From positions 1 to 64,000 of the forward strand of contig JAUSOY010000075.1 in assembly GCA_030656615.1 (NCBI GenBank): a stretch of DNA of 64,000 nucleotides. Direction: 5' to 3'. The translations under genes and the position numbers were made by a program. The notes beneath the pieces are model-generated. The model made no database searches. It worked only from the letters and a program-made list of their open reading frames with translations, and was not told where the DNA came from. Positions 27,878 through 39,812 of this stretch are shown piece by piece; position 1 is the stretch's first letter; every line of letters starts with the position of its first letter. Origin of the DNA: Bacteroidales bacterium (GTDB lineage Bacteria; Bacteroidota; Bacteroidia; Bacteroidales; TTA-H9).

Positions 27878-30800
27878 TTAAAACGCCGCCTGGAATCCTT
27901 CTTCAAATCTTTTAAGCAAGGTATCAGCACCGAACTCAAACATACGGTTGGCATCATCGGTTCCGGTATATTGCATGAGCATCGATCCACATGATTTTCC
28001 CGGCAGGAGTTTGACAAACTCCATAAAAATATCATCCGTATTCGATGATGCGTCAATTCCTACACCATTACATAGCGCAGTAAAAAACTCAAGACTATTC
28101 ATCGCTGTTTTAGATGGCAATACTGCCTGAAATGGCTGCACATTTTTTTGGGTATTTGTAAATGAACCTCCGAGTTCCGCAGCAAAATTAGCAGGAATTA
28201 ATAAATGAGCCTTCGCACCCGTTTCGGTCATAAAATGATCCATAACTACAATAAATTCGGGCTTAGCTAACCAATTACCAAGCATTTCCTTATCAATAGC
28301 ACAACCCAAAGGATCTTCTCCCAAAATAAAAAGATTCCGGATTTTTCCATTTTCGAGCTTCACTTTGGTGCATCCATTAGGCGAAGGAATTTCCGAAACA
28401 TTCCATTGGTTTGCCAATTGCATACGGAATTTCTCATCGTCAAGGCTTTGATTTCCTGGTCCAAAACTCACACGCATGCCATTATCGATAAGACCCTGAG
28501 AGTTACAATTCTCTTTCAAGGCAACAATGCCAGTGGCTGTCTTACCTAATTTTCCGGTGATGACTGCCAGATTTATGATTTCAAGAGCCGTGGCACCCGA
28601 AATATCCTTTTCAGAATAAATCAATACGGCATTCATGGCATCATTGAATTGACAGGCAAATTGACCAATCGCATCCGCTGTACATCCCGAAGATTTTACC
28701 AAAGAAGCAAAGTCTTCAACCATTAATTGTTTCTTATAGGCTTCGTATCCGTTTACAACTCCATTTACGAATAAATCGTTTTGCAAGCCATTATCAATCA
28801 GATAATAATTTACCGCCTTTACAAAATGATAATAGCTACGAATCCGAATAATTTCATCGGATTTGTATTCCATAGCACTTTCGGGCAATGCGGTAATCAG
28901 ACTCAGAGGTTTATATCCTTTAAACCTGGCTTTCTCGATGATGAAACTTACAGACGAATAATCGGTATTCAACTCACAGCCCATCACAAAATAATGCCCT
29001 GCTTGGGGTAAATCATTCAGTGGCACGTTAAAATCGGATGTGTTCAAATATCCTTTTCCGCGTGCGATGTAATGAAAGCTATTGACATTCGGGGTTTTAA
29101 CTCCTCCTCTTGCAAGCTTCTGAATCATATACATCTCTTCATTCGTCAGACGGGCACCGGCAGTAAATGCATTTTCGGCCGGAGCCACTGCACCTATTCT
29201 TTTCAGGATGATATCAATGGCCTCTTTATAGGAAATTTCCACAAAATCATTTCCTTTCTTAAGCATTGGTTTAGTAATTCGGGCTGCATCATTTAACAAA
29301 CGATAACCAAACTTTGCTCTCCGGCTGATGTTCCCGTCGCGGTTAATAATACCATTTCGTCCTTCGGCACCATATACAAAACCTTTGCGATGTTTCAGGT
29401 TGATTTCAAAACCTTCTGCACTCAAAAAGTCAATAGCAGCAGCATCTTCGGACTGAACGGGACCCGGTTTAAAAGGTACGTTTTCAGTTATTGCACCGGT
29501 AGGACATGCCGAGATACATAATCCACAGGATTCGCAACTCGATTCACATAACGAATCTCCCATGCTGGGAGCGACATGCGTATCAAAACCACGTTCTACA
29601 AGACCAATAGCTCCTGCACCAACAACTTCGCGGCATATACGAACACAACGGCTACAAAGTATGCATTTGTTATTATCGATTTCGATATACGGATGCCTGA
29701 AATCTACCTGATATTCGTTGAATTCGCCTTCAAAACTTTTTTGGTCCGCGTGATATTCTGTGGCATATTTTTTTAAGTCGCAGGTAAAGTACTCGGTACA
29801 TCCACATTCAAGACAACGATGCACTTCATTCATCGCCACTTCTTCGTTTTCGTATCCCAACTCAACCTCTGCAAAATTCATACGGTCATTCGGATCAAGT
29901 ACCGGCATTTCATGCCGATGCTGAATATGGAATTTATCCTGATAGGTTTCCTTTTCCTGAACTTTAAAATTTTCTTTACGGCTGATAAATTCTTTGGAAA
30001 GAGGAACAACAGGCTGTCCACTGAGGTACAAACTGCAGGAATGTGCCGCAATTTTGGCCTGAGCTACCGCTTCAATAATCGTTGCTGGTCCACTGACCGC
30101 ATCACCGCATGCAAAAACACTGGAAATTCCTGTACGCAGTGTTTTTGAATCAGCAGCAATATCACCCCATTTATTAGGTTCCAGCTTTCCATTTTCCGAA
30201 TACGCATTAATATCATCAACGAAGTTAATATCTGTTTTTTGACCAATAGCAGCAAGAACGTAGTCAACGGGGATATCGAATTCAGAACCTTCCACAGGAA
30301 CAGGTCTGCGACGACCTGAGGCATCCGGTTCTCCAAGTTCCATCCGGAGGCAGGTAACTGTTTTAACATTACCATCTTCATCCTTATTAATCCGGGTAGG
30401 ATTCGTCAGAAAGAGATATTCAACACCCTCGAGTTTGGACTCATGAATTTCGATAGGATTCGCAGGCATTTCTGCTTCTGTTCTGCGATATATTACATAA
30501 ACCTTTTCAGCATTACAACGAATGGAAGTCCGGCAGCAATCCATTGCCGTATTTCCTCCTCCCACCACAGCAACGGTCTTTCCTTTGAAATCCGTTTTTT
30601 CACCGGTAAGCTCCATGGTTTTCAGAAAATCGATACCAGAATAAACATTTCCAGCGTCATCACCTTCGCAACCCACGCGAGTGCCTTTTTGTGAACCGAT
30701 AGCCAACACTACTGCATCGTACTGTTTCTTTAAATCCTTATAGCTTAGATTATCACCCAGTTTTTTCTGACAATATATATTCACACCCAAATCGGTGATG

Positions 30801-31564
30801 TTTTTTACCTCTTCATCAAGGATATCATTGGGCAGGCGATATTCGGGGATACCATACCGTAACCAGCCTCCGGTTTTTGGAGCCGACTCGAAAATATCAC
30901 ATTGATGACCAGCTATTTGGAGAAAATATGCTGCTGAAAGTCCGCCCGGGCCAGCACCAATTACAGCCACTTTCTTTCCGGTAGAAGCTCTAATTTCTGG
31001 TACAAATTTTTGATCAGATTTCAGATCGATATCTGCAGCGAAACGTTTCAGATAATCGAGACCTACACCGGTACCTTCATCCAGAAGATTACGTCTACAA
31101 GCGACTTCACAAGGACGAACACAAACTCTTCCACAAATGGCTGGCAGAGGATTATTTTCCTTTACGAGTCCGATAGCATCTGAGTAAAGTCCTTTTTCGA
31201 TGAGGGAAATATAACCCTGGACATCCACTCCGGCCGGGCAGGTTTGTTTACAAGGCCCCAAACAATCAGCATAATGATTACTTAACAGCAAATCGAGCGC
31301 TGTTTTTCGGGATTTTTGAACAGATTCATTTTCAGTCTCTATTTCCATGCCTTCGGCAATTCGTGTTGAGCATGAAGGCTGATGTCCCCGCATTCCCTTA
31401 ATTGCTACCACACACACATAGCATGATGAATACGGATCGAGTCGCGGATCGTGACACATGGTAGGGATGTGAATACCATGGCGGTTAGCCAGTTGTAGAA
31501 TAGTTTCTCCAGGCTCGCCTTTAACAATTTTCCCGTTGAGTACAATATTTAAAAAATCACTCAT
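27878..31564 (-). CDS. stnC: GltD/NuoG fusion subunit of a Stn-type electron-bifurcating transhydrogenase (StnC-like)
   Basis: This is a 1228-residue iron-sulfur flavoprotein. Domain order: a NuoG-like [2Fe-2S] ferredoxin domain (Cys37, 48, 51, 65); a His/Cys cluster segment (H97, C101, C105, C109); a GltD-type Cys row (C144, 148, 152, 156); an FAD fold (GAGPGG, 203-208); an NADPH fold (VGGGNTA 334-340, then YRRTEAEMPA, which favours NADPH); CLECGC 584-589; a two-cluster ferredoxin domain (634/637/640/644 and 677/680/683/687); and a NuoG/molybdopterin-oxidoreductase-like domain from about 700 to the end. That last domain lacks the Cys set for a Mo-linked Fe-S cluster and any Cys/Sec active site, so it is probably structural. 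This order matches StnC of the Stn transhydrogenase, which binds NADPH and takes electrons from the bifurcating StnAB module. A formate dehydrogenase call is unlikely. It is last in a four-gene operon, 29 nt after stnB. Confidence 0.85.
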   Translation of the reverse strand: MSDFLNIVLNGKIVKGEPGETILQLANRHGIHIPTMCHDPRLDPYSSCYVCVVAIKGMRGHQPSCSTRIAEGMEIETENESVQKSRKTALDLLLSNHYADCLGPCKQTCPAGVDVQGYISLIEKGLYSDAIGLVKENNPLPAICGRVCVRPCEVACRRNLLDEGTGVGLDYLKRFAADIDLKSDQKFVPEIRASTGKKVAVIGAGPGGLSAAYFLQIAGHQCDIFESAPKTGGWLRYGIPEYRLPNDILDEEVKNITDLGVNIYCQKKLGDNLSYKDLKKQYDAVVLAIGSQKGTRVGCEGDDAGNVYSGIDFLKTMELTGEKTDFKGKTVAVVGGGNTAMDCCRTSIRCNAEKVYVIYRRTEAEMPANPIEIHESKLEGVEYLFLTNPTRINKDEDGNVKTVTCLRMELGEPDASGRRRPVPVEGSEFDIPVDYVLAAIGQKTDINFVDDINAYSENGKLEPNKWGDIAADSKTLRTGISSVFACGDAVSGPATIIEAVAQAKIAAHSCSLYLSGQPVVPLSKEFISRKENFKVQEKETYQDKFHIQHRHEMPVLDPNDRMNFAEVELGYENEEVAMNEVHRCLECGCTEYFTCDLKKYATEYHADQKSFEGEFNEYQVDFRHPYIEIDNNKCILCSRCVRICREVVGAGAIGLVERGFDTHVAPSMGDSLCESSCESCGLCISACPTGAITENVPFKPGPVQSEDAAAIDFLSAEGFEINLKHRKGFVYGAEGRNGIINRDGNISRRAKFGYRLLNDAARITKPMLKKGNDFVEISYKEAIDIILKRIGAVAPAENAFTAGARLTNEEMYMIQKLARGGVKTPNVNSFHYIARGKGYLNTSDFNVPLNDLPQAGHYFVMGCELNTDYSSVSFIIEKARFKGYKPLSLITALPESAMEYKSDEIIRIRSYYHFVKAVNYYLIDNGLQNDLFVNGVVNGYEAYKKQLMVEDFASLVKSSGCTADAIGQFACQFNDAMNAVLIYSEKDISGATALEIINLAVITGKLGKTATGIVALKENCNSQGLIDNGMRVSFGPGNQSLDDEKFRMQLANQWNVSEIPSPNGCTKVKLENGKIRNLFILGEDPLGCAIDKEMLGNWLAKPEFIVVMDHFMTETGAKAHLLIPANFAAELGGSFTNTQKNVQPFQAVLPSKTAMNSLEFFTALCNGVGIDASSNTDDIFMEFVKLLPGKSCGSMLMQYTGTDDANRMFEFGADTLLKRFEEGFQAAF

Positions 31565-31593: not shown

Positions 31594-33414
31594 TTAAGAA
31601 AGCACAATGGCATCAAACTTACACTTGCTGAAGCAGGCACCGCATCGGATACAATCATCCTGACGAATATAATGCGTCTTTTTACGTTCCCCGTCAATTG
31701 CTTTAGGAGGGCAATTTTTTGCACAAACGGTACAACCGGTACATTTTTCATCGTCAACGGTATACGTCAGCAAAGGCTTACAAACTTTTGCTGGGCATTT
31801 ATGATCCCGGATATGAGCTTCGTACTCATCGCGGAAGTATTTAATGGTGGTAAGTACTGGATTTGGCGCTGTCTGGCCCAAACCACACAAAGAATTATTT
31901 TTGATTTGCTCTGCGAGATTCAGTAGTTTTTCAAGATCGCCTTCCTTTCCATCTCCATTTGAAATGCGAATCAGGACTTCGAGCATGCGTTTAGTTCCAA
32001 TACGGCAGAAAGTGCATTTTCCACAGGACTCTTTCCTAGTAAAATCGAGAAAGAATTTAGCCACATCCACCATACAGGTGGTTTCATCCATAACAACCAT
32101 ACCCCCAGAACCCATTATGGCTCCTGTGGCATTTACCGAATCGTAATCGACAATGGTATCCGCCAGGTATTCAGGAATACAGCCCCCGGATGGTCCTCCC
32201 AACTGCACTGCTTTAAACTTTTTATCTTTTTGAATTCCACCGCCCAATTTAAATATAATATCGCGGATGGTAATACCCATAGGTACTTCCACAAGACCAC
32301 TTCGCTTCAGTTTGCCAGCCAGTGCAAAAACCTTGGTGCCTTTGCTTTTTTCTGTTCCAAACGCTGTATAGGCAGCTGCGCCATTGTTTATAATCCATGG
32401 AATATTAGCAAATGTTTCAACATTATTAATATTGGTCGGTTTTTGCCATAATCCGCTTTCAGCAGGAAATGGTGGACGTTTGCGAGGCATACCTCTTTGT
32501 CCTTCTACCGAAGCAATCAAAGCAGTTTCTTCTCCACATACAAATGCTCCGGCACCTTCCTTGATATACATATCGAAATTAAACCCTTGAATTCCAAAAA
32601 TGTTTTTTCCGAGATATCCCTTTTCCCGTGCCTGGATAATTGCAATATTCAGACGTTTTATAGCCAGAGGATATTCTGCCCTGCAATAAATTATTCCATC
32701 CGTGGCGCCGATGGCATAAGCACCCGTTATCATTCCTTCGATTACGGAATGTGGATCACCTTCCAATAAAGATCGATCCATAAAAGCACCCGGATCACCT
32801 TCATCAGCATTACAAATAATATACTTTTCGTCTGATTTATAAGAATTGGCAAATTTCCATTTCAAGCCGGTGGAGAAACCGCCACCTCCACGACCGCGTA
32901 AACCGCTATCGATAAGTGTTTGAATAACATCCATCTGCGTTAGCTTTTCGGATGCGATTTTACGTATGGCGTTGTATCCTCCATGAACCTCATATTCTTC
33001 GAGCGATTCCGGATCAATATGACCGCAATTACGTAAGGCAATTTTTACTTGCTCACGTGTAAAGGTGTCGTCAACAGTCTCCATAAAGTCAGACTGCACA
33101 ATGTATTCTTTTACCGGAGTTTGCTGCACAATATGCTTATTGATAATTTCAATAGCTCTGTCCTCATCAATTTCGCCATACAGATAAGCTCCTGTTTCGT
33201 CAATAATTTCAACCAGGGGTTCACGATAGCACATCCCCACACAGGATGTCTTTTTCAGTTGAAAGGAAAGATTCTCCGCTTTCTGAAGTTCCAATATTTT
33301 TTGATAGGTTTTATTGGCACCGGCAGCTATACCGCAACTACCTAAACCTACAATCACCTGAGTATTTTCCATGGATATAATCTGATTTTTTAACCGGAAT
33401 TTCCGGTGATTCAT
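31594..33414 (-). CDS. stnB: NuoF/HydB-like NADH-binding subunit (StnB-like)
   Basis: This 606-residue flavoprotein resembles HydB of electron-bifurcating hydrogenases. It has an N-terminal thioredoxin-like [2Fe-2S] domain (GLGSCGIAAGA, then CVGMC); an FMN/NADH core with RGRGGGGFSTGLKW near residue 172 and NADEGDPGAFMDR; the [4Fe-4S] motif ESCGKCTFCRIGT with its distal Cys in LCGLGQTAPNPVL; and a C-terminal two-cluster ferredoxin domain (CTGCTVCAKNC and CIRCGACFSKC). In Stn and HydABC systems this subunit holds the bifurcating FMN, passing one electron to ferredoxin and one up to the pyridine nucleotide branch. The ATG at 33414 overlaps the stnA stop (TAATG), suggesting coupling. A second in-frame ATG at 33372 (MENTQV) begins where family similarity starts, so either is possible. 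Confidence 0.88.
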   Translation of the reverse strand: MNHRKFRLKNQIISMENTQVIVGLGSCGIAAGANKTYQKILELQKAENLSFQLKKTSCVGMCYREPLVEIIDETGAYLYGEIDEDRAIEIINKHIVQQTPVKEYIVQSDFMETVDDTFTREQVKIALRNCGHIDPESLEEYEVHGGYNAIRKIASEKLTQMDVIQTLIDSGLRGRGGGGFSTGLKWKFANSYKSDEKYIICNADEGDPGAFMDRSLLEGDPHSVIEGMITGAYAIGATDGIIYCRAEYPLAIKRLNIAIIQAREKGYLGKNIFGIQGFNFDMYIKEGAGAFVCGEETALIASVEGQRGMPRKRPPFPAESGLWQKPTNINNVETFANIPWIINNGAAAYTAFGTEKSKGTKVFALAGKLKRSGLVEVPMGITIRDIIFKLGGGIQKDKKFKAVQLGGPSGGCIPEYLADTIVDYDSVNATGAIMGSGGMVVMDETTCMVDVAKFFLDFTRKESCGKCTFCRIGTKRMLEVLIRISNGDGKEGDLEKLLNLAEQIKNNSLCGLGQTAPNPVLTTIKYFRDEYEAHIRDHKCPAKVCKPLLTYTVDDEKCTGCTVCAKNCPPKAIDGERKKTHYIRQDDCIRCGACFSKCKFDAIVLS

Positions 33415-33932
33415 TACTGGTTTTCTTTAATCCGGATGTTTTTTACGATTTTAACAGCAGCAGCACCATTAAGCTTTCCAAAGGTATCATTGCCAATCGC
33501 CATAACAGGAGCTAACGAACAACATCCTAAACAAGCTACCGACTCTAGCGTAAATAATCCGTCGGGAGTAGTAGCACCGTCAGGAATTCCAAGTGCATCG
33601 CAAAGAGCCTCACTAACTTCATTGGCGTTTTGAACATGACAAGCTGTACCGTGGCATACTTTAATGATATGCTTCCCCACAGGATTTAGCCGAAATTGAG
33701 CATAAAAGGTGGCAACACCATACATATCACTGAGACTAAGCCCGGTATCTGTTGCAAGTTTTTCAAAAGCTTCTCTGGGGATAAAGCCCAGCAGGCTTTG
33801 AGCCCCCTGCAGGAGAGGAATCATATTGCCTTTTTTGCCCTTATATTTTTTAATGAGGGGGTCAAGCACCTCTAGATCAGGTAAATCTACCTGTGTAGTC
33901 TCCGGTTCTCTTCTGATTCTGGCTATGCGCAT
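33414..33932 (-). CDS. stnA: NuoE/HydC-like [2Fe-2S] subunit (StnA-like)
   Basis: This 172-residue protein of the NuoE/HydC thioredoxin-like [2Fe-2S] family has four cluster ligands at Cys93 and Cys98 (CHGTAC) and Cys134 and Cys138 (CLGCC). It is preceded by the helical region LQGAQSLLGFIP with SDMYGVATFYAQF, standard for NuoE. With StnB it would form the bifurcating core (homologous to HydBC). It is separated by only 4 nt from the upstream sensor-receiver-ATP-grasp gene and overlaps stnB, so the four genes should be one transcript. No hydrogenase (HydA) subunit is nearby, which argues against a HydABC complex. Confidence 0.9.
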   Translation of the reverse strand: MRIARIRREPETTQVDLPDLEVLDPLIKKYKGKKGNMIPLLQGAQSLLGFIPREAFEKLATDTGLSLSDMYGVATFYAQFRLNPVGKHIIKVCHGTACHVQNANEVSEALCDALGIPDGATTPDGLFTLESVACLGCCSLAPVMAIGNDTFGKLNGAAAVKIVKNIRIKENQ

Positions 33933-33936
33933 GAGA

Positions 33937-36900
33937 TTAGATTTTGGTATTATTTAATTCTATTTCTGTTTTTTGATTGGATTCTATATTGAAAAGGATG
34001 GCAGCAAGACGCAATTTCCCATCCATTCTGACCTCCAGTCGTTTATCAAAACGAATATGCTTAAAAAATTTGGTTTGATGCACCAGGGTTTGTTTTTCGA
34101 GTATTGTCCAGTCGACTAAGCATTTATTCGAATTATGCTGAATACTGAAATAACCAACACTCATGCTGGTAACATTATGGAAAAAATGAGAACCCGAAGA
34201 TGCATCCAACGGGAAATCCTCAAGACTTGTTTCAACAATAACTCCTGCATTGCTTATCTGAGGCCAGTTAACCGGAATTCCTATAAATCGATCCCTTGTG
34301 CCCCATCTTCCCGGGCCAATAAGAATATACTTACGTTTTTCCAGTTTCATCTGTTGATTGAGCTTTTCAATTTCTTCGGCCATTTCCAGCGTCATATTTC
34401 GGTCAAACAACGCAGGATCAACATAAATTACATCTGTTAAATCGTCGATAAGGCCATTACCCATGGCTTTGTCTGTTAATAACAAAAGGTTTTCCTTAGG
34501 CAGTTTATCCACATCTACTGAATAATCCTGCGGGTTACCGATGAGTGGTTTAATTTGCAAGAGATAAAAGGTGGCTCTTTGCTCGTCGTCACGATTCAAG
34601 TCTACTGCAAACTCAATTTCTACAGGCGATCCCATGGCTTCTTTCACCACGTCCAGTACCACTTCAATGGTCCGGGCTAAGGGAATGTAATTATACTTGA
34701 GAATATCAGCAAAATTAAGAATGCGTGGTCCGGGTTTTGACAAACCAGGATTAATTGTATTATTATCGGAATTATATACGGATGCCAGATGCCTGAGTGT
34801 TCCGTGATTTTCGGCATCATAAATATCAATTTTTATCAGTCCGGCCTCTTCGCCCTTTCCACGAAGATCAATGTCTGGTTTCCCAAGATTTACGGCATAA
34901 AAATCAACCTGAGATCCTTTAAACTGATCGCGTGGGGAGTTGATTTCAAGGGTAGGATATGAAGGAGCAAAACGGAACGCTTTTTCGCCTTCCACGACAT
35001 ATCTTCCTAATCCAAGAGCCAGAACAGCGAAACCCTCTTCAGGTTTCATATGCGCAAAGGGATAATAATTATATGATTGAGCCACGCCACTGATGTGTGG
35101 ATAATGATAATCGCCATACTGATTTCCTACAACTTCCTGAATTACAACTGCCATACGCTCTTCTTCAATTTTATAATTGATAGCTTCGATATAGGAACGG
35201 GCAATTTTAGAATAGGTGGATGCAAAGACCAGTTTAATGGCATCCATGCATTGATTCAGTCTTTCAGTGAAATCTGTATGATTATTGGGAATCAAAAAAG
35301 TCTCAAAAATACCTGCAAATGGTTGCATTAGCGAATCTTCAAATAAACCTGAAGACCTTATGGCTAAAGGCTTTGTAACCACATTGAGGATTTTCCTAAG
35401 TCGACCTACTAAGACGTCCGATAATTTTGTGTCGAGAAAAATCGCTTTAAGTTCATCTTCATTTGTGATTTGATGAACTTGTTCATGAAGATTATTTCTA
35501 TCCATGAATGCATCAAACTCATCGGTGCCAATTATAAAGGTTTTAGGCGCTCTGATATTGATATTGGGAATGATTTGATGAAAATCAAAATCAAAAATCA
35601 GTGTATTGATAAAAGAAAGACCACGTCCTTTGCCCCCTAGTGATCCAGAAGAAAGTGTAAGAATGGTGGAATCATCATTAATCAGACTCTCCTCAAACGA
35701 TATCACCTTTCCTTTATTCTGTTCATTGCGGTGTTGTTGAATGGCATCAAGCAAAAAATTCCGTATATCCTCAGGTTGTTCAAAATGTTCGATCTTAAAA
35801 GGATATATAATTCGAGCTATTTGCACTTCTCCACGAGCCATAAACCAAAGCGAAAAGTGGTTTCGTTTGGAATGATATATCAGACTATCGTCCGGAATAT
35901 TGCTCAATAATTTTGCAAATTCGCGCAGGGTGCGGGCTGTTGCTATTGGTCGTCCGTTTGAATCTTTATAAACGAAGCTGCCAAAGCCAAGATATGTACT
36001 GATGAAATACTTTATATCCTGAACCAGACTATCTGCATTTTTATTTATAAAACTTGATTTCAGTAAAAATGCCTGATGAGAATTATCACTGTCAGACGAT
36101 TGAATAATGATTGGCAGATCACGCATTTGAGACCGCACTTCTTCTACAAGGCCAAAACCTGCATGATCGTTTAAGACTCCATTTCTCCGGAAACGTACAT
36201 CGGTTATCAGGCAAAGCATATTTTCTTTGTAACGGTTGAAAATACTTATTGCCTCTTCATAATCGGAAGCCAGTAAAATTTTTGGTCTAGCCCTTAACTT
36301 CAGGACTTTGTATAGCTCATCCGTATTCACATCCTCAATAAGTCTTGACGTTTGCTCCAATACAATGGAATACAGCAGTGGCAAATAACGGGAGTAATAT
36401 TTCGCTGAATCTTCAACCAGAAGAATCACCCGTACTAATCCAATCGATGTATCGTTTTCAACATTAACACGATCCTCAAGATGCTTAACCATTGCAAAGA
36501 AAATCTTGGAATCGCCATTCCAAACAAAAACTTTATCAATGGAATCGGGTTTAATTCCTTCCTTTTCAAAATAATGGATATCGGCATTATTATTTAGCAG
36601 AACATAAATTGGGATATATGGATAAGCTTCCCGAATGCGATCTGAAATAGCAAAATGCACCGCTTTGTCCATGCCTACCATGAGAATAATCAAATCGAAA
36701 TGTTTGGTTTCGAGTTGTTCCTGAGCCTCCTCCAGCGTTGAAACACCCGTTATCCTTGGCATACTGGACAAATTAAGATGATAATACTCGCCAAGAATAT
36801 GTTCCGAAAACCGTCCTTCTTTTTCAATGCTGTATGCATCATACAACGTTGCCATCAGCAATACTTCTCTCACTTTAAATGGCATGAGGTCATGAAAAAT

Positions 36901-38226
36901 GTCGCGCTGGTAATTATTCTTATTAATAAATTTTTGAAGTAATTGCCGACTATTGATGAATGAGCGGGGAGCTTTTTTGGGGAACTCTCCGGTCTTTTTC
37001 ATTATATCATGACCTTTAAGGCTATTCAGGTATCCGGCTACCAGGCTGGTAAGATTTGCAATCAGCTGACGCTCCTCTTTAAGAAAAGGACCCTCATCGC
37101 ATTTGGGAAATTGTTTTGAATAGAAAATTTCGATGCTTCCTTTTTTTCCATCAATGGTTTCAAATTCCTGGACCATCCTCCAAGGGCTTTCTAAAAAATC
37201 GTGACTCGAATATTGCTTTTCGTCGAAGGTTATCCGCGAAGAACAAAACTGTGGAAACTGCCAGGCTGCCGGCAGAATATTGGAAAGTTGTTCCAGTGTT
37301 TCATCTACCGGTTTTTTCTCACGTAAAATAAGGGTTGTTTGATTGATGGCCGAAAGTTCCTTAAGCCGTTCCGTACTGAAAAGTTTTTCTTCCCGTCCTC
37401 TAACACTGTTTAAATAACCCGAAAGTATTCCAGCAAGGTTATCAATAAGCTCGCGTTCTTCTCTAAGAAATGGGCCTTCATCAAGTTGAGGATATTCGCG
37501 GCTGTAAAACACCTCAATCATTCCACCTTTACCATCAATGCTTTCAAATTCAGTAGAAATGCGCCACTCAGACTCTGAGAAATTATTACTTAAATAATAA
37601 TTACCATCATATGTGATGCGAGCACTAGTATTTTCTGGAAACTGCCAGGCCGGGGGAATTAAAAGGGCGATAAGTCTTAAGGTATCATGAACTGACTTTC
37701 CTGCCTTAATGATATTGGTTGTCTGGTTAATGGCAGCCAGTTCCTTTAGTCTTTCGCGGGTAAAGTGCTTGCTTTCCTGGCTGATAATTCCATTAATAAA
37801 ACCGGTTACCATATGCGACAAATTCTCGAGCAACAATGCTTCATCATCAGAAAAAGGGCCAATATCAGATACCGGCTGAGGTTCGGAATAATATATCTCA
37901 AAAGCGCCTTTTATTGAATCAACCGACTCGAAAGGTTGCATTAAAACCCAACCGGTCTCTTTAAAGCCCGGACTTGTAAACTCAAAATCATTATAACGAA
38001 TACGGCACATTGCCGATTCGTGATGTCGGCATGCCTTAGAAACAATGGAACAAATTTCATTTAAGGTTTCATAAATAGGCTTCCCTTGCTTAAGAATATT
38101 TGTGGTTTGATTAATACACGCAAGGATTTTCAATCGTTCATTTTGCTCAGTATTTCCACGTGCATGAGCGCTTGTGCTATGATTGCCTTTTTTCGGGGAA
38201 TTATTCATATTAATATCGCTGAGCAT
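33937..38226 (-). CDS. Sensor (3 GAF-like) - two receivers - PPDK/PEP-synthase ATP-grasp fusion protein
   Basis: This is a 1429-residue cytoplasmic protein. Residues about 31-150, 157-278 and 285-405 are three copies of one GAF-like unit, each opening RLKxLxxINQTT and ending in a DEGPF or DIGPF, Glu-rich, NL...GYLN pattern. Next come two receiver-like domains. The first, about 453-585, has no clear phospho-acceptor. The second, 597-745, looks competent: acidic pair E605-D606, Asp676 in LITDVRF, Lys729 in NKNAD. From about 855 comes a pyruvate-phosphate-dikinase N-terminal ATP-grasp domain (GGKGRG 864-869, RSSGLFED at 957, LQIKPL), then a conserved tail with GPGRWG. The phosphohistidine and PEP-binding domains of PEP synthase are absent, so it should not make PEP. 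It likely transfers phosphate or nucleotide to a protein or the complex encoded 4 nt downstream. An alternative start is 38208. Confidence 0.85.
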   Translation of the reverse strand: MLSDINMNNSPKKGNHSTSAHARGNTEQNERLKILACINQTTNILKQGKPIYETLNEICSIVSKACRHHESAMCRIRYNDFEFTSPGFKETGWVLMQPFESVDSIKGAFEIYYSEPQPVSDIGPFSDDEALLLENLSHMVTGFINGIISQESKHFTRERLKELAAINQTTNIIKAGKSVHDTLRLIALLIPPAWQFPENTSARITYDGNYYLSNNFSESEWRISTEFESIDGKGGMIEVFYSREYPQLDEGPFLREERELIDNLAGILSGYLNSVRGREEKLFSTERLKELSAINQTTLILREKKPVDETLEQLSNILPAAWQFPQFCSSRITFDEKQYSSHDFLESPWRMVQEFETIDGKKGSIEIFYSKQFPKCDEGPFLKEERQLIANLTSLVAGYLNSLKGHDIMKKTGEFPKKAPRSFINSRQLLQKFINKNNYQRDIFHDLMPFKVREVLLMATLYDAYSIEKEGRFSEHILGEYYHLNLSSMPRITGVSTLEEAQEQLETKHFDLIILMVGMDKAVHFAISDRIREAYPYIPIYVLLNNNADIHYFEKEGIKPDSIDKVFVWNGDSKIFFAMVKHLEDRVNVENDTSIGLVRVILLVEDSAKYYSRYLPLLYSIVLEQTSRLIEDVNTDELYKVLKLRARPKILLASDYEEAISIFNRYKENMLCLITDVRFRRNGVLNDHAGFGLVEEVRSQMRDLPIIIQSSDSDNSHQAFLLKSSFINKNADSLVQDIKYFISTYLGFGSFVYKDSNGRPIATARTLREFAKLLSNIPDDSLIYHSKRNHFSLWFMARGEVQIARIIYPFKIEHFEQPEDIRNFLLDAIQQHRNEQNKGKVISFEESLINDDSTILTLSSGSLGGKGRGLSFINTLIFDFDFHQIIPNINIRAPKTFIIGTDEFDAFMDRNNLHEQVHQITNEDELKAIFLDTKLSDVLVGRLRKILNVVTKPLAIRSSGLFEDSLMQPFAGIFETFLIPNNHTDFTERLNQCMDAIKLVFASTYSKIARSYIEAINYKIEEERMAVVIQEVVGNQYGDYHYPHISGVAQSYNYYPFAHMKPEEGFAVLALGLGRYVVEGEKAFRFAPSYPTLEINSPRDQFKGSQVDFYAVNLGKPDIDLRGKGEEAGLIKIDIYDAENHGTLRHLASVYNSDNNTINPGLSKPGPRILNFADILKYNYIPLARTIEVVLDVVKEAMGSPVEIEFAVDLNRDDEQRATFYLLQIKPLIGNPQDYSVDVDKLPKENLLLLTDKAMGNGLIDDLTDVIYVDPALFDRNMTLEMAEEIEKLNQQMKLEKRKYILIGPGRWGTRDRFIGIPVNWPQISNAGVIVETSLEDFPLDASSGSHFFHNVTSMSVGYFSIQHNSNKCLVDWTILEKQTLVHQTKFFKHIRFDKRLEVRMDGKLRLAAILFNIESNQKTEIELNNTKI

Positions 38227-38432: not shown

Positions 38433-39812
<1,380 letters not shown>

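Follow-up and report, generated by a model that had tools for sequence, protein, structure and literature searches.

Within a 64,000-nucleotide stretch of Bacteroidales DNA (contig JAUSOY010000075.1, positions 1 to 64,000; called the window below), one open reading frame (ORF) encodes a large bacterial protein that has not previously been characterised, named here SRA for sensor-receiver-ATP-grasp protein. Its gene stands beside that of a glutamate dehydrogenase (Gdh), and the partnership of SRA with Gdh is well supported. Since SRA travels with gdh across Bacteroidota, its probable role is the dedicated control of the conversion of ammonia to glutamate. Slightly better than even, in our judgement, are the chances of the fuller proposal that SRA is a dedicated controller of Gdh which integrates signals, is gated by a receiver and depends on ATP, possibly acting by phosphotransfer. 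Nearly every genome of the window's order, Bacteroidales, has a member of the family (a match in 258 of 295), as do all well-assembled genomes sampled that are probably Bacteroides, yet no publication found in the literature search names it. The two genes are the following:

33937..38226, minus strand: SRA gene, 1429 amino acids, ATG start (ORF; PPDK_N match, E 3.7e-41)
38457..39812, plus strand: gdh, family I hexameric glutamate dehydrogenase, divergent from the SRA gene and 230 nucleotides from it

Glutamate dehydrogenase as the neighbour of SRA

The original prediction, made from the letters of this DNA, did not mention gdh, which lies on the other side of the SRA gene from the transhydrogenase gene stnA. 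Three architectures of the family were compared: the core form, a short form of about 580 amino acids with the ATP-grasp and C-terminal domains only, and a far form of about 1060 amino acids with one sensor module, an ATP-grasp domain, the C-terminal domain and a nucleotidyltransferase domain scoring above the Pfam cut-off. Gene calls throughout are simple ORFs. An even set of 296 genomes from the phylum contained 51 core proteins in 40 genomes, all 40 of which possess Gdh, and Gdh was located within 6 kb of 43 and within 1.5 kb of 40 of the 51 proteins, in four relative arrangements. Across 141 compared loci, which are mutually related and partly picked by similarity and some of whose neighbours are concealed by contig ends, Gdh was beside 90 (65 of 110 core, 10 of 11 short and 15 of 20 far loci). 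Clustering of the neighbours at 88 loci placed Gdh first (48), with a LuxR-type response regulator next (23). Gdh adjoins the family in every branch, branches without the transhydrogenase Stn included. The neighbour of the short and far forms is an NAD-type gdhB; often the three genes stand in a row, gdhB-short-far, with the last two overlapping. Because all three architectures hold the pair of ATP-grasp and C-terminal domains, this pair is the part shared beside Gdh, and the linkage across the three architectures is directly observed.

A run of this kind is present at L155:6600-12837, with gdhB, a 580-amino-acid short protein and a 1060-amino-acid far protein, the last two overlapping by a few bases; loci L154 and L156-L163 are similar. 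The protein at L161:5578-8769 (minus strand) and 19 like proteins carry a sensor module, PPDK_N, a GRWG/GTHFF domain and a C-terminal nucleotidyltransferase, with gdhB beside 15 of the 20. With its nucleotidyltransferase domain, the far form raises the possibility that Gdh is also subject to a second chemistry, nucleotidyl transfer.

Domain composition of SRA

From the N- to the C-terminus, SRA consists of three tandem modules, a degenerate receiver, a complete receiver, a linker, an ATP-grasp domain and a C-terminal domain, all encoded on the minus strand:

37795..38139, minus strand: sensor module 1, residues 30-144 (family-module profile, E 6.9e-39)
37411..37755, minus strand: sensor module 2, residues 158-272 (family-module profile, E 7.9e-44)
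37027..37371, minus strand: sensor module 3, residues 286-400 (family-module profile, E 1.3e-47)
36517..36873, minus strand: receiver-like domain 1, degenerate, about residues 452-570 (Met/Thr at Asp position 516)
35983..36432, minus strand: receiver domain 2, complete phospho-acceptor set, residues 599-748 (D676 at 36199-36201)
34543..35655, minus strand: ATP-grasp domain of the PPDK/phosphoenolpyruvate (PEP) synthase type, about residues 858-1228 (K866, R957, E1205 and Q1224 invariant)
33982..34542, minus strand: C-terminal domain, probable diverged phosphohistidine swivel, residues 1229-1415 (GRWG motif; His1347 at 34186-34188)

That a single protein combines three sensor units, two receiver-like domains and an ATP-grasp domain had been predicted, and the ORF, Pfam, profile and residue checks agree on it. 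An AlphaFold2 model built from 101 sequences covers residues 425-1429 (mean pLDDT, the predicted local distance difference test score, 84; pTM, the predicted template modelling score, 0.68). In the linker the Pfam match to DUF5752 was sub-threshold.

The N-terminal units are true tandem repeats of about 115 amino acids, each matched at E < 1e-38 by a profile made from the family's own modules, and their number varies from zero to four among core-form relatives. They had been described as three GAF-like units; the threefold repeat stands, but the label is unconfirmed, because the SRA modules were matched neither by a Pfam GAF model nor by any solved structure in the PDB, and a GAF identity was dropped.

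The two receivers, one of them complete, were recovered as predicted. Receiver 1 has lost the phospho-acceptor Asp, with Met or Thr at position 516. Receiver 2 has the acidic pair, the Asp, the Ser/Thr and the Lys of response regulators (E605, D606, D676, S710, K729); E605, D676, S710 and K729 are invariant in 101 sequences and D606 is present in 99 of the 101. The Pfam receiver match in SRA is weak; the model of receiver 2 superposes on solved receivers, with Z values up to 15.9 for the best of them, the ComE receiver (126 residues, root mean square deviation 1.8), and in residues and structure this domain resembles phosphorylatable receivers. No histidine kinase was identified adjacent to the SRA gene. 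As in PleD-type proteins, two tandem receivers precede the output domain, but the output of PleD is a GGDEF domain and that of SRA an ATP-grasp engine. A long extra helical stretch, conserved in the family, lies behind the first strand of receiver 2 (window 35983-36432; core residues 184-220).

In the ATP-grasp domain, PPDK_N (PF01326) matched residues 862-1234 (E 3.7e-41). None of the 141 relatives, the most distant ones included, departs from K866, R957, E1205 or Q1224, and position 1226 is Lys or Arg. In a profile alignment these catalytic residues occupy the same columns as in PEP synthase, and their PPDK counterparts are K22, R92, E323, Q335 and R337. The predicted structure agrees with the PPDK type proposed earlier, matching PEP synthase (2ols) and rifampin phosphotransferase (RPH; 5hv3) with Z 25.7. 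The absence of a PEP domain was likewise confirmed, as no Pfam match to a PEP/pyruvate-binding barrel was found in SRA and there is no room for one after residue 1415. SRA thus has in common with PEP synthase (PpsA) and PPDK the catalytic residues of the ATP-grasp domain and a probable swivel domain following it, but it is without the barrel, its C-terminal domain is missed by PF00391, and sensors and receivers have been added. RPH has the same engine, there serving a non-pyruvate acceptor, but SRA is without a rifampin-type substrate domain and has a regulatory N-terminus.

The C-terminal 190 or so residues are matched by no Pfam family. They contain the motifs GRWG and S-x-G-(S/T)-H-F-F, the latter with His1347, and His1347, GRWG and E1332 are invariant in the 141 relatives. 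A match to the PPDK phosphohistidine domain was written down as a prediction before the structural comparison. When the domain modelled alone (pLDDT 89, pTM 0.88) was compared with 999 aligned chains, the top four were PPDK phosphohistidine domains (Z 5.6-6.4), the best being the phosphoryl carrier domain 2fm4 (Z 6.4). RPH and EI-Ntr likewise contributed phosphohistidine domains to the top nine, and these matches together run over Z 5.3-6.4. Since unrelated folds come at Z 5.6 and below, the match to the swivel fold is only moderate. At the level of the fold, His1347 sits at the place expected for the catalytic His of a swivel domain. Foldseek alone returned nothing below E 0.001 for the C-terminal domain, and a PF00391 search of the window's genome matched the true PPDK only, not SRA. 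Sequence profiles did not furnish proof of a phosphohistidine domain: the longer alignment to PEP synthase continues beyond the ATP-grasp domain but reaches just the first strands of the C-terminal domain. On the strength of the model, a diverged phosphohistidine swivel domain is likely, though not proven. The statement in the original prediction that SRA has no phosphohistidine domain therefore holds by sequence and is doubtful by structure. If the domain is, as seems probable, a swivel carrying His1347, the SRA engine may be complete.

A candidate for the trans-acting factor of Bacteroides

One genus in a family of the window's order is probably Bacteroides. All 37 well-assembled genomes sampled from it have an SRA-family protein, and a Gdh gene was within 6 kb of 36 of the 55 SRA copies located; the Gdh query served only to locate Gdh genes. 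Wherever gdhA was within 6 kb it was convergent with the SRA gene, which places the SRA gene downstream of gdhA. One of these genomes has the order gdhA, catalase, SRA gene, second gdh. In B. thetaiotaomicron the gene BT_1971 encodes a catalase, which would agree with this order; for that species, the gene order around gdhA is drawn from the probable Bacteroides genomes.

Baggio and Morrison (1996) announce in their title that one or more trans-acting genes located downstream of gdhA affect B. thetaiotaomicron Gdh activity (PMID 8955404, in the references of PMC4539542). The SRA family is a candidate for this factor: where it is close to gdhA in Bacteroides-like genomes the SRA gene is also downstream, and the core SRA gene measures 3.0 kb; the 1996 gene(s) were from B. 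thetaiotaomicron itself, but the SRA match is drawn from Bacteroides-like genomes. Reportedly, Gdh activity was restored in E. coli by a 3-kb segment supplied in trans. Reversible inactivation of B. fragilis Gdh is said to have been described in a paper of 1987. Going by the 1996 title, the control of ammonia assimilation in gut Bacteroides has been a standing question since that report, and the present analysis supplies a concrete candidate gene and residues.

Possible function of SRA and alternative explanations

As a controller of Gdh, SRA would read the nitrogen, redox or energy state through its sensor modules and phosphorylatable receiver. These would gate the PEP-synthase-type engine, formed by the ATP-grasp domain and the diverged swivel domain with His1347, and the engine would spend ATP to alter Gdh activity. 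The likeliest chemistry would lead from ATP to phospho-His1347 and from there to Gdh itself or a partner that acts on it. In the window's clade the SRA gene is also linked to a bifurcating transhydrogenase that forms NADPH (StnABC; NfnAB elsewhere), which would let Gdh activity and reductant supply be set jointly. The intact ATP-grasp and receiver residues and the domain folds are observations; direct contact with Gdh or an effect on it, a phosphotransfer step and its acceptor, and the nature of the signals are what we infer. In its most specific form the proposal is tentative and less likely than not: the PEP-synthase engine (ATP-grasp and swivel) may have been repurposed as a receiver-gated device for protein phosphotransfer that switches Gdh on and off. 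If true, this would be a Bacteroidota nitrogen-control circuit of a kind other than the GlnD/GlnE/PII systems. Post-translational control of Gdh, the function proposed for SRA, is also exerted by GarA and KidO, Gdh-binding regulators in other phyla, but their folds are unrelated to SRA, which has no FHA or Rossmann redox-sensor module.

SRA could instead be a non-catalytic partner of Gdh, whose ATP-grasp domain binds ATP or ADP to sense energy charge and whose binding activates or inhibits Gdh allosterically, with no phosphotransfer. The Gdh neighbourhood fits this equally well, SRA has no PEP/pyruvate domain and no acceptor domain recognised by Pfam, and the swivel match is unseen by profile comparison. 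However, the invariance of the phosphoryl-transfer residues and of the C-terminal His in 141 divergent relatives exceeds the needs of nucleotide sensing, and we regard the allosteric partner as possible but rather doubtful.

Several points weigh against the proposed ATP-dependent controller of Gdh. Many Bacteroidota have a close Gdh but no SRA-type protein, so Gdh in general does not require SRA. The swivel-fold Z of 6.4 is moderate, and profile-profile comparison of the isolated C-terminal domain gave no phosphohistidine-domain match. In the genome that best fits the B. thetaiotaomicron order a catalase gene separates gdhA from SRA, and therefore the 1996 segment could hold another gene. About a third of the SRA loci have no nearby Gdh, some of them owing to short contigs, and the second SRA copy in the window's genome is not near Gdh. 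The last two facts would also suit an explanation by neighbourhood only, in which shared regulation or joint inheritance keeps the genes together and SRA acts elsewhere, as would the finding that this paralogue adjoins dnaE and a thioredoxin-like gene. Such an explanation is nevertheless unlikely, because each of the three deep branches has Gdh next to the family, and the genes are neighbours in several orientations and orders. The paralogue itself (G000:C65:134302-137232, locus L070) is without sensor modules.

The original prediction had put SRA forward as a possible regulator dedicated to the StnABC transhydrogenase, whose genes in the window are:

33414..33932, minus strand: stnA, 4 nucleotides downstream of the SRA gene
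31594..33414, minus strand: stnB (8oh5_B, E 7.6e-258)
27878..31564, minus strand: stnC (8oh5_C, E 6.2e-207)

The gap of 4 nucleotides and the naming of Stn were confirmed, the latter by the matches of StnB and StnC to the solved Sporomusa Stn complex (8oh5), which is described in PMC10482914. The original prediction would have counted the pairing as incidental had the fusion protein never stood next to stn in other genomes, but the pairing recurs: of 57 sensor-bearing relatives, 6 have StnABC immediately after the SRA gene and in the same orientation, which with the window makes seven genomes. In five others (L098, L106, L114, L116, L117) this downstream position is taken by NfnAB, another bifurcating transhydrogenase, counting only true NfnAB that is co-directional and downstream and, in two of the five, ignoring a small intervening ORF on the opposite strand. 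Since Stn pairing recurs and NfnAB takes the same slot, the link of SRA to NADPH supply is real, but it is secondary to Gdh. StnABC was close at only 11 of 110 core loci and at none of the 31 short or far loci, counts that rule Stn out as the main partner of SRA, and Gdh is found in the branches that have no Stn. Where StnABC adjoins SRA, Gdh usually sits on the opposite side, and at L123:433-8036 stnABC directly follows gdh, with which it shares the strand, and the SRA gene diverges from it. Stn adjacency takes eight changes on the tree, so the Stn-adjacent SRA genes are not one clade (all tree-based clade numbers rest on FastTree only). A regulator with an ATP-using engine thus remains of the earlier proposal, while its dedication to Stn is very improbable.

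Least probable of all is a small-molecule dikinase, PEP-synthase-like, whose product bears on glutamate metabolism, for although PEP synthase and RPH are the nearest named families, SRA has no barrel or other substrate domain and carries a fused phosphorylatable receiver and sensor modules, and the 580-amino-acid members are the two-domain engine alone, with scant space for a substrate domain.

Other neighbouring genes

A 289-amino-acid zinc-ribbon protein (L116:7355-8224) is encoded directly downstream of SRA in seven genomes and resembles the N-terminal extension of the adjoining NfnB. Looser early counts of NfnAB were inflated by this protein, since the NfnB query carries that extension. 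At L143:5110-8012, as in a few genomes, the alpha and beta genes of a 2-oxoacid:ferredoxin oxidoreductase adjoin the SRA gene; such occasional neighbours, together with the Stn/Nfn slot, fit a module for the 2-oxoglutarate/NADPH/glutamate node. A NarL/LuxR-type response regulator of 217 amino acids (L127:7249-7902), with relatives in 22 other loci, mostly of one clade, stands beside SRA and is a possible transcriptional partner of it.

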